Source: Phycisphaerales bacterium (GTDB lineage Bacteria > Planctomycetota > Phycisphaerae > UBA1845 > Fen-1342). Taken from it: a stretch of DNA of 37,008 bases. A program made the position numbers and the translations under genes. This document shows, piece after piece, positions 25,124-35,763 of this stretch; position 1 is the stretch's first letter; each line of letters starts with the position of its first letter. The notes beneath the pieces were generated by a model. It was given only the letters and a program-made list of their open reading frames with translations, ran no database searches and had not been told where the DNA came from. Location of the stretch: NCBI GenBank assembly GCA_003162245.1, contig PMMM01000046.1, positions 5,761 to 42,768 on the forward strand, in the 5' to 3' direction.

Positions 25124-27661
25124 TTATGATCTGGATCGTCCAGCCACATTCCGCCCCACCGCGAGCGCCGCCACCGACGCGAGCTTCGTCCCCGCCAGCA
25201 CCCACGCGGTCGTCGCCATGCCGAATACCGGCACCAGAAGGACTCCGCATAGCAGCGCCCCGACGCAAGCACCCGCATGATCCGCCCCCACGACACTGCC
25301 GGACGCGCGACCCACTTTGCGCAGAAATCCAAGCTGTAGCTCGCCCGCCAGCGGGAACGCCGCGCCCCCAAGCAGGCCCGTCGCGACGACCAGGGCCGAA
25401 ATGCAGCCCTCGACCAACCGCAGCACGCCGGGCGTCGTCGGCAGGGCGGCCAGCGCCGGCAGCACCAACGGAACGGCCAGCGCCAGCAGCGTCAGCAGCA
25501 CGTCCACGAGAATCAGAAGCCGCCACAGTCGCGACGGAGCGCGGCGGCCGGCATCGCCCGCAGACGGTGCCGCATCCGGCCGCCCGCCGGGCTCGCCGAC
25601 CAGCAGGCACCCCGCGACCAACCCGGCCATGAACAGCGCGATGATCCACCCGATCCGCTGGTAAACGTAGCCATACAACGTCTGAAAGGCGTACAGCCAC
25701 AGGATGCTCAGTGCCATGGTGGCAAACCCGGTCGTGCCGACGGACAGCGTAACGGCTCCGCTGGCCCACCCTTCCCGGCCGCCCAGCCGCAAGCGCGGCA
25801 CGACCACGGCCAAAGCGGCGAACGCGGCCAGCGCCGCCACGAGCTGACCCAGCCGCACCTTCTGCAGCCAGGCGATCACGTGACTGCCGCTTGAAGCGGC
25901 CTCCCAGAGCACGAGTCGTTGCACATAGAGCCCGGGCCGCAAATCCGTGTTGACCCGCGCCCCTTCGGCCGCATCCAGCTCGCGTGCCCGGCTCGCGAGT
26001 TTATCGGGCTTCAGCCAGTCCGTCGCGCCCGCGAACCAGAGTGGATCGAACAGCGGCGAAGCCACGCCCCGCCGCTGGTAGCGCGCCGCCAGCTCCGCCG
26101 GGTCGGTGGAGAGCAGGCCGGTCGCGGTCGCCGCTAGGATCTGCGCCGGGTCGCCCCAGCCGACCACGAGATCGGGGAAATGGCGGGCGAGCGTCTCCCG
26201 CACCGACGCCAGGTACGTCCGCGACGCCGGCGCCAGCTCCGTCGGTCCGGCGGCCGCCGTCAGGCATAGCACAGCCTGCGGCGTCATGGCCCGACGGAGC
26301 TCGCCAAAGAACTCGTCGGTGTAGAAGCGGGCGCAAAGCGCTGAGATCGGTTCCGGCAGGCGGGCGATGACGAGGTCGAAGCGGTCGCGCTGCGTCTTCA
26401 CGAAGTAGCGGGCGTCGACGTTGTGGACTGTGACGCGCGGGTCGTACAGCGCCTGGCGATCGGGTTCCGCGAGGTACGGGCCGACCAGCTCGAGCTGCCG
26501 CGGATCGGGCTCGACGTAGTCGAGGTGTGCGACCGGGTGGCGGAGCAGCTCGGCCAGCAGGCCCTCCGCGGCCCCGCCGAGGACGAGCACCTGCTGCGGG
26601 TGCGGGTGCTCGCACATCCAAAAATGCGCCAGCGGGACGAACGTGTACGGGTCGGGGAAGTCGGCGGACACGTGGCCGTTGCAATACAGCGTGAACTGCC
26701 CGGCCCGGCGGCCCAGGGCGAGATTCTGGTACTTCGACTCGGCCTCGGCGACCAACTCGTACCCGGGCGCGATGTTGCGCCAGCGCCGCTCGACCAGCCG
26801 GCGGTCCAGCGTGTCGCCGGCGAAGATCGCCGTCACCAGCGCCCCGCCCGCGGTCACGCCGAGCAACTTGGCGGCCGCGCGCCGTAGCGTCAACCCTCTG
26901 TGGCTGACGGCGGCGTCGGACGGGGCTTCGCTGGCGCGCCGCGCGAGCACCACCGCCGACAGCGCCGTCGTGAGCGCACCGCACAGCAGCGCCGTCTGAA
27001 GCGGCCCGAGGTGCTCGACGGCCCAGAAGCTGAACGTGGCCCCGCCGATGAGGCTGCCGAGCGACTCCAGGGCGTAGATTCGCCCGAACGACAGGTAGGG
27101 GCCGCCATGCGGACCACCTGCCGCGCCATCGGCCACGTAGGGTCCGCTGTGCGGACCGCCTGCCATTTCGCCGGCCACCGAGCGGTCCGCACAGTGGACC
27201 CTACGGACGCAGCACGCCAGCGGAAACGACAGCCCGACGAGCGCGCTGGTCGGCGACACGAGCAGCAGCGCCGCCAGGGCGATTTTCGGCAACGGCAAAA
27301 GCTCGCCGGGGCCGACTCCCAGCCACGCGCGGGCCCCGCGGAAGACCCACAAATCCACGCACGCCGCGAGGCCGAGCAGCGTCAGGACCGCGACGAGTCC
27401 CACGTCCGCCCGCGTCTGCCCGGCGCGTGTGCTCGTGAGCCCAGCGCCCAGCTTCGCTCCGCCCGCGACGCCCAGCAGCCACGCGCACAGGACGACGCCC
27501 CAGGCGAACTCGCTGCCGTACATCAGCACGATGGCTTCGCGCAGCAGCAGCGTCTGCGTCACGATCGCCTGCGCCCCCCAGGCGACGACCAGCGCGCCGA
27601 GCCACCAACGGCGGCCGCGGTCGCCGGTGGTCGGCGCGAATATGGTCTGGCACGCCGTCAT
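25124..27661 (-). CDS. Large membrane protein with spermidine-synthase-like domain
   Basis: An 845 aa protein with hydrophobic segments in the N-terminal third, a soluble SAM-methyltransferase-like domain (about 300-520) and a second membrane block to the end. The middle carries QNLALGRRAGQFTLYCNGH, VLVLGGAAEG and LDYVEPDP, the pattern of spermidine synthases. At the position of the catalytic DxxDP it reads RLPEP, followed by RFYTDEFF, so aminopropyl transfer is doubtful. Such MFS-fused proteins are known but mostly uncharacterised. Residues 154-189 come from a palindromic repeat translated in frame (27095-27205). ATG 27661 has gggag 8 bases upstream. Confidence 0.75.
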   Translation of the reverse strand: MTACQTIFAPTTGDRGRRWWLGALVVAWGAQAIVTQTLLLREAIVLMYGSEFAWGVVLCAWLLGVAGGAKLGAGLTSTRAGQTRADVGLVAVLTLLGLAACVDLWVFRGARAWLGVGPGELLPLPKIALAALLLVSPTSALVGLSFPLACCVRRVHCADRSVAGEMAGGPHSGPYVADGAAGGPHGGPYLSFGRIYALESLGSLIGGATFSFWAVEHLGPLQTALLCGALTTALSAVVLARRASEAPSDAAVSHRGLTLRRAAAKLLGVTAGGALVTAIFAGDTLDRRLVERRWRNIAPGYELVAEAESKYQNLALGRRAGQFTLYCNGHVSADFPDPYTFVPLAHFWMCEHPHPQQVLVLGGAAEGLLAELLRHPVAHLDYVEPDPRQLELVGPYLAEPDRQALYDPRVTVHNVDARYFVKTQRDRFDLVIARLPEPISALCARFYTDEFFGELRRAMTPQAVLCLTAAAGPTELAPASRTYLASVRETLARHFPDLVVGWGDPAQILAATATGLLSTDPAELAARYQRRGVASPLFDPLWFAGATDWLKPDKLASRARELDAAEGARVNTDLRPGLYVQRLVLWEAASSGSHVIAWLQKVRLGQLVAALAAFAALAVVVPRLRLGGREGWASGAVTLSVGTTGFATMALSILWLYAFQTLYGYVYQRIGWIIALFMAGLVAGCLLVGEPGGRPDAAPSAGDAGRRAPSRLWRLLILVDVLLTLLALAVPLVLPALAALPTTPGVLRLVEGCISALVVATGLLGGAAFPLAGELQLGFLRKVGRASGSVVGADHAGACVGALLCGVLLVPVFGMATTAWVLAGTKLASVAALAVGRNVAGRSRS
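27095..27205. repeat. REP-like palindromic repeat cluster inside a coding sequence
   Basis: Arms of 24 bases at 27136-27159 and 27182-27205 are inverted copies with one mismatch, around a 22-base spacer. A third, degenerate copy of the arm lies at 27095-27115. The core word gtagggtccgc is followed by a triplet loop and gcggacc, a small hairpin. The same type of hairpin occurs at 36936-36955. The cluster is wholly within the membrane protein gene and is translated as repeated GGPHSGPY/GGPHGGPY. Confidence 0.85.
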
Positions 27662-34586: not shown

Positions 34587-35014
34587 GCGCCGTCTCCAAC
34601 CACCCATCTTACGCCGCGGACGGCGATTTCGCGCGCCCGCCGCGCCGGCCGCACCGTCGTCCCTGCGCCCGTGGCGTTGCCCCTCAAACGTAGTGTCGTC
34701 CCCCGCAAACGTAGCGTCGCCCCCCCGTGGGCGACGTAGGACGCGGAAAACCGTCATCGCGCCGTCGGACGCCCCGCTTGGGCTAGCCGGGGACGGCGGG
34801 GAGACGGTATACTGGACCGCAGGCCCCTAGCCGGGCTCACCGGGCACGGGTTGGTGGGGCCGCAGCGCAGGCTGAATCCGAACATCGCGCGGGCGTACCG
34901 GCATAATGCCAACGGCAACCGCGCGTCGTCTGCAGGCGGCATAGGGCAGGAAATACGCCATTGTCTTGCGCGCTGGAAGGCCCGCTTCTCTTCAGCGGCG
35001 ATGGAGGTGCACCA
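34587..35014. other. Intergenic region with repeats
   Basis: About 430 bases between the zinc-ribbon membrane protein gene (-) and the LuxR-type gene (+). It contains the hairpin repeat at 34685-34740. A tatact at 34808-34813 could be a -10 element for the plus strand but has no convincing -35 at the right spacing. No gene is seen. Confidence 0.5.
34685..34740. repeat. Tandem 21-base repeat ending in a hairpin (cgtcgccc / gggcgacg)
   Basis: Two 21-base units begin at 34685 and 34706, both starting caaacgtag. The second unit forms a hairpin: arms cgtcgccc at 34715-34722 and gggcgacg at 34729-34736, loop ccccgt. It matches the hairpin at 35738-35759 with a compensatory change in the stem. Confidence 0.8.
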
Positions 35015-35733: not shown

Positions 35734-35763
35734 GTAGCGTCGGCCCCCCGTGGCCGACGTAGA
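35734..35763. repeat. REP-like hairpin (cgtcggcc / ggccgacg)
   Basis: Arms cgtcggcc at 35738-35745 and ggccgacg at 35752-35759 with the loop ccccgt (35746-35751), flanked by gtag on both sides. Same design as 34715-34736, but one base pair of the stem is swapped (G-C for C-G). It lies 27 bases before the leader repeat copy B. Confidence 0.85.

Follow-up and report, generated by a model that had tools for sequence, protein, structure and literature searches.

In-frame copies of a GTAG-tagged REP family within a membrane protein gene of a Phycisphaerales bacterium

The presence of a long inverted repeat inside an open coding sequence raises the question of whether it arose within the gene or came to it as mobile DNA that has since been translated. 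Such a repeat is found in the DNA analysed here, 37,008 nucleotides of contig PMMM01000046.1 of a Phycisphaerales bacterium (the window). An earlier note, made from the letters of the window, had suggested that it is a palindromic repeat insertion read as protein, comparable with the RPEs of Rickettsia. The source genome of the window (G000) is a draft of 4.76 Mb in 264 contigs, and that of its congener (G001) is likewise a draft.

Three repeat copies within the gene

The host gene encodes a membrane protein with a spermidine-synthase-like domain mid-protein (PF01564, E 2.6e-19, residues 344-469), which is predicted to be flanked by helical regions. Its matches in NCBIfam, to polyamine aminopropyltransferase and to fused MFS/spermidine synthase, are all below cut-off. 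Most of the named relatives that carry the gene are Phycisphaerales and Phycisphaerae assembled from metagenomes, the nearest being AlinenSedimentsCore3_bin-0378 (L225, 86% in the best segment), in which the gene and its linker agree with the G001 orthologue.

At 27095-27205 there are three copies of a 21-nt palindrome, GTAGGGTCCGCTGTGCGGACC, where none is expected from 100 dinucleotide shuffles, and there are no others in the window at up to 5 mismatches (Table 1). The first two in the direction of the gene, A and B, make up the inverted repeat originally noticed, with arms of 24 nt (27136-27159 and 27182-27205) that are 96% complementary across a 22-nt spacer. The frame does indeed stay open across it, as had been observed. 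What had been taken for a third, degenerate arm does exist, but is a third copy of the repeat, pointing the same way as copy B. Copy A is translated as (R)RVHCADR (residues 153-160), while the opposite-strand readings of copies B and C are GPHSGPY (169-175) and GPHGGPY (183-189), so the extent first proposed, residues 154-189, was essentially right.

Table 1. Positions of the repeat copies and associated features (window coordinates unless a locus is named)
Feature	Position	Strand	Remarks
Host gene, 845 aa membrane protein	25124..27661	-	ORF listing; open frame, uninterrupted
REP copy A	27184..27204	-	1 mismatch to consensus; GTAG end first in gene direction
REP copy B	27137..27157	+	Exact consensus
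REP copy C	27095..27115	+	3 mismatches; degenerate; direct orientation relative to B
Head-to-head REP dimer (REPIN), copies B and A	27137..27204	.	68 nt; hairpin fold, head-to-head geometry
Spacer between C and B, translated too	27116..27136	.	21 nt; sequence and translation
REP-derived linker, residues about 152-189	27095..27207	-	Predicted disordered
GTAGCGTCGGCC stretch	L225 around 2299-2460 (G001:C308:7586-7678)		In frame

Copies B and A have their GTAG ends outside, a spacer of 26 nt between them (27158-27183) and a start-to-start distance of 47, and the strand 27136-27205 folds as a single long hairpin (z = -8.45, equalled by 0 of 200 shuffles).

The repeat family and its candidate transposase

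The structure of GTAGGGTCCGCTGTGCGGACC, a GTAG followed by a 7-bp stem (GGTCCGC/GCGGACC) around a 3-nt TGT loop, agrees with the definition of GTAG-tagged REPs, which have an unpaired GTAG at one end, a stem of 5-13 bp and a short loop (Di Nocera, De Gregorio and Rocco 2013, PMC3733652, cited here and below from its abstract and key sections). When 3 mismatches are allowed, G000 has the family at 19 places and G001 at 27; at 2 mismatches or fewer it is found in 51 of 120 genomes, most abundantly in G102, which has 260 copies. The reversed pattern, searched as a control, gave no match in any genome search. Copies are dispersed and mainly intergenic, 13 of the 19 places in G000 having no coding-like frame that spans them. 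Where two copies are close together, as seen in six genomes, 33 pairs are head to head, one is head to tail and none is tail to tail. The start-to-start distance is exactly 52 in 12 of the 18 head-to-head pairs of G102, and the 47 of copies B and A fits the dimers elsewhere, which mostly have 43-54. Genome-wide copies that pair head to head mark this as a GTAG-tagged REP family that forms REPINs, and it is common to an order of planctomycetes; Planctomycetes are listed among the REP hosts in the sections consulted (PMC3733652).

Copies B and A are themselves a REPIN, two inverted REPs in one hairpin. As far as the sections consulted describe them, REPINs (Bertels and Rainey 2011, PMC3116915) are likewise two inverted REPs with a spacer that form one long hairpin and are linked to a RAYT, but those were described in extragenic space, whereas the REPIN of the window is intragenic.

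It could be argued that the palindrome arose by chance in a gene rich in GC, or that a duplication of GGPHxGPY at the coding level happens to be palindromic. The gene is GC-rich and weak palindromes are common in it by chance (18 with no more than 3 mismatches, against 10.8 expected), but the exact 21-mer is found at many unrelated, mostly intergenic places where its reversal is never found, and neither the head-to-head geometry nor the flanking of a transposase gene by the same repeat would follow from chance. Chance is ruled out by the genome-wide copies, and its likelihood here is negligible.

PF01797 matches are present in all 13 genomes tested. With 186 bits for NF047646 (cut-off 80), the protein of L188/L195 belongs to the REP-associated tyrosine transposases (RAYTs), and at L188, in G053, its gene is flanked by five copies of GTAGGGTCCGCTGTGCGGACC: an exact REP just upstream of the start, another that provides the TAG stop codon, and three others nearby. 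Eight of the 30 nearest RAYT loci from the 120 genomes (L195, L196, L197, L198, L200, L201, L202, L205) have at least two copies at up to 4 mismatches, with mostly other GTAG palindromes at the remaining, remoter ones. Five or more REPs are present in 17 of the 22 genomes that have a close RAYT (E<1e-60), against 19 of the 98 others (Fisher p 4e-7, uncorrected for kinship). The flanking of a RAYT by the same REP, as in other GTAG-tagged families, is therefore seen in relatives, whereas G000 and G001 have no close copy of this RAYT.

In these two drafts the best matches have E values of 5.2e-7 and 5.6e-7, that of G000 being far from the cognate RAYT clade. There is no GTAGGGTCCGCTGTGCGGACC copy (up to 4 mismatches) at the three PF01797 loci of G000, L020-L022, two of which (L020 and L022) are close to other GTAG palindromes. 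Close RAYTs are likewise not found in some REP-rich genomes, such as G102 and G033. The RAYT gene could be missing from the drafts, the lineage could have lost it, or the transposase could work from another clade. On the evidence of the sequences flanking it in relatives, the RAYT is the likely mover of this REP family, and it would have made these particular insertions as well.

Two palindromes of a second GTAG type, GTAGCGTCGSCC...GGSCGACGTAG, are present at 34711-34739 and 35734-35762 of the window, outside likely genes, and palindromes that resemble this type are close to RAYT-like genes in L022 and L186.

In-frame copies in other genes

A search of other genes for in-frame copies, as had been suggested, was positive. 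A coding-like frame on both sides spans six of the 19 REP places in G000, in four genes in all: that of the window, with three copies, and mnmA, nadC and dnaE2. All four are shared with G001, in which 5 of 27 places were flagged as coding-spanned and a sixth, in the orthologue of the window gene (L070), fell below the threshold and was counted by alignment. The peptides encoded differ (RVHCADR, GPHSGPY, VGSAART, AQRTL) because four frames are used, which indicates that the DNA, and not the peptide, is the unit. As the unit is 21 nt, a multiple of three, and its consensus is free of stop codons in five of the six frames, the insertion of a single unit keeps the frame.

In nadC there are exactly seven extra residues in G000 and G001 and none in any of 24 relatives. 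The REP sites of mnmA and dnaE2 are in linkers of variable length in relatives, and the ends of these insertions can therefore not be fixed. The mnmA of G001 (L063) has about 30 further inserted residues near RVLPA that are absent from the mnmA of G000 and that, compared by eye, do not match the GTAGGGTCCGCTGTGCGGACC REP. At 3 of the 19 places in G000 a coding-like frame takes its stop codon from the GTAG; one of the three frames is uvrA (L011), which ends in the same way in G001 (L055). This uvrA also appears to have an extra stretch before LYVLDEPTTG.

In four relatives (G021, G007, G015 and G019, with 3 of the 8 places of G019 taken) 2 of 52 copies in 40 loci are coding-spanned, one of them in a linker of DNA polymerase I in G019 (L284, NCBIfam equivalog PRK05755). 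The in-frame REP of L260, in G021, is in what we take to be a thioredoxin-domain-like protein. Among the 260 copies of G102, none of 36 distinct copies in 30 loci is coding-spanned. The difference in intragenic fraction between G000 (4/17) and the four relatives (2/40) is not significant (p 0.058), and the codon model was trained on G000.

GTAG REPs within genes, some of them in frame and adding amino acids, have been reported from several species, and more than half of the intragenic GTAG/CGTC inserts are dimers or groups that encode 20-30 residues (PMC3733652). Their targets include dnaE2, DNA polymerase I and uvrA, and the provision of TAG stop codons by REP ends is described for REPs in general (PMC3733652). 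The REP family of the window is similar to these in being a GTAG palindrome that occurs as singletons and head-to-head dimers, mostly intergenic and sometimes in frame; the case differs from what the sections consulted describe in having a Phycisphaerales host and a history traced through orthologues. No planctomycete intragenic case is named in the abstract and key sections of that paper, and the string GGGTCCGC is absent from its main text. A literature search confined for the most part to main texts outside subscription journals found no report of translated REPs in Phycisphaerales. Translated intragenic GTAG REPs have thus been known since 2013, and what the window case adds is an unusually full record of insertion, sharing and decay.

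A further alternative is that a Rickettsia-type RPE, or an element related to it, was inserted, and not a REP. The outcome is the same, palindromic repeat DNA being translated in frame in unrelated genes, here the four of G000, as it is for RPEs (PMC10969869). The unit of 21 nt and the dimer of 68 nt are nevertheless well short of the about 150 bp of RPEs as first reported, each of which encodes a conserved peptide (PMC10969869, as far as consulted), whereas the REP of the window is read in at least four frames. The intragenic CGTC repeats of R. conorii have been equated with RPE-4 and RPE-6, a group described with a CGTC tag and no transposase (PMC3733652, same sections), in contrast to the GTAG and the RAYT found here. 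Tag, size and RAYT therefore disfavour an RPE, which would be an extremely improbable identity for this insertion. The proposal of a dispersed palindromic repeat translated in frame in a planctomycete thus holds, borne out by a genome-wide family and four genes, while the type of element is to be corrected to a GTAG REP/REPIN.

History and fate of the insertion

The orthologue in G001 has the same linker, with three copies that are all exact and an additional 33 bp, and the frame is kept. Outside the genus the linkers are of variable length, 19-46 residues in the 14 of 18 relatives readable by the motif used, and none of these 14 has GPHSGPY. Since linker length varies in all relatives, the insertion in the window gene has no ends that can be placed with single-base precision. 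Thirteen of the 14 show no trace of the REP at up to 4 mismatches, which, with the absence of a GGPH-type linker, agrees with the insertion suggested by the earlier note; the exception, L227, appears to have a decayed REP.

In L227, which belongs to another genus, a 21-mer with 4 mismatches is present exactly at the site of copy C and in the same frame. The 124,090 bases of the relatives' loci contain three matches at up to 4 mismatches and none to the reversed pattern. Among 21 rows from outside the genus read at the place of copy C (a genome may be represented by two rows, and two more rows gave no match), only L227 has fewer than 9 mismatches. This 21-mer is read here as a decayed ancestral copy, so that some of the inserted DNA probably predates the genus, although the same site may instead have been hit twice.

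A second GTAG repeat, GTAGCGTCGGCC, has three exact in-frame copies at about residue 256 of the G001 orthologue of the window gene. G001 has it at 41 places, where the reversed control gives 3, and G000 at 16, where the control gives 2.

In the structure model (mean pLDDT 84.7) the linker is between helices 124-150 and 192-217, and residues 155-189 have a pLDDT under 50 and are predicted to be disordered, which is partly expected because only two of the 18 aligned rows have residues there. Between G000 and G001, 22 codons of the linker are identical, 5 have silent changes and 11 have replacements, compared with 620, 119 and 68 in the rest of the gene, so that the linker is richer in replacement changes (11:5 against 68:119, p 0.015). 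The predicted disorder and the replacement excess make the linker look loosely constrained, with its frame open. The protein would be made with the linker, which may well be neutral.

Positive selection of the linker as a functional module, His/Gly/Pro-rich and possibly metal-binding or substrate-sensing, for which the REP was recruited, would account for the retention of the element in both congeners, its extension in G001 and the excess of replacement over silent changes (11:5). A relaxed linker would, on the other hand, give the same ratio, copy A is in another frame and has no GPH motif, and nadC and mnmA bear the same DNA in still other frames; in addition the segment is predicted to be disordered and the motif has decayed in L227. 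A selected peptide motif is rejected, as several frames are used, and selection for a functional module is on the whole improbable.

It is very probable, instead, that a REPIN and a third REP of the same family were inserted into a tolerant loop in an ancestor of the genus, and were kept since the frame stayed open. This reading is based on the membership of the copies in the family, its dispersal, the frame, the sharing between congeners, the absence or decay of the element in relatives and the association with a RAYT in relatives, each of which is directly observed. REPs of the GTAGGGTCCGCTGTGCGGACC family would be mobile DNA, with the RAYT as the likely mover, and two head-to-head GTAG REPs together with a third would have entered the loop of the membrane protein. 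Insertions that break genes would be lost, those in floppy loops would survive, and the survivors would now be drifting into ordinary linker sequence.

The locus is a well-resolved case of non-coding mobile DNA that became protein, at one site and in one frame. It can be seen in three states, fresh in G001, where all copies are exact, drifting in G000 and decayed in L227, in addition to the seven-residue insertion of nadC. It also connects a REP family found across a planctomycete order with the transposase that probably moves it, and offers a system for counting how often translated REP insertions arise and what becomes of them.

A broader suggestion, put forward tentatively and rather unlikely at present, is that in this Phycisphaerales family mobile DNA regularly lands and wears down in the flexible linkers of housekeeping and repair proteins, that the 21-nt REP unit, frame-neutral and nearly free of stops, is pre-adapted to be turned into protein, and that the same proteins, dnaE2 foremost, also absorb whole other elements that remain translated. 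Were this so, mobile DNA would be the main source of new linker sequence, and more than chance would lie behind the recurrence in DNA repair genes of different phyla (dnaE2, polA, the end of uvrA).

In dnaE2, an insertion that keeps the frame and adds over 100 residues follows VDCLALGML in 10 of 18 rows from outside the genus (L139, L146, L149, L150, L153, L155 and L156, and also L151, L152 and L154). A brief literature search found nothing on an IVP-type gene nested in dnaE2. In the first seven of these loci, which were read in all frames, the +1 frame of the insertion encodes a protein resembling a four-helix bundle, and the three such proteins compared with family models all score far above the cut-offs of PF05635 (23S_rRNA_IVP) and TIGR02436. 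The insertion is, by these matches, a putative gene nested in another frame of the polymerase gene. The dnaE2 frame is open through it, and it is flanked by translated blocks that resemble inverted repeats (RDQGIEGS / PRSLDP).
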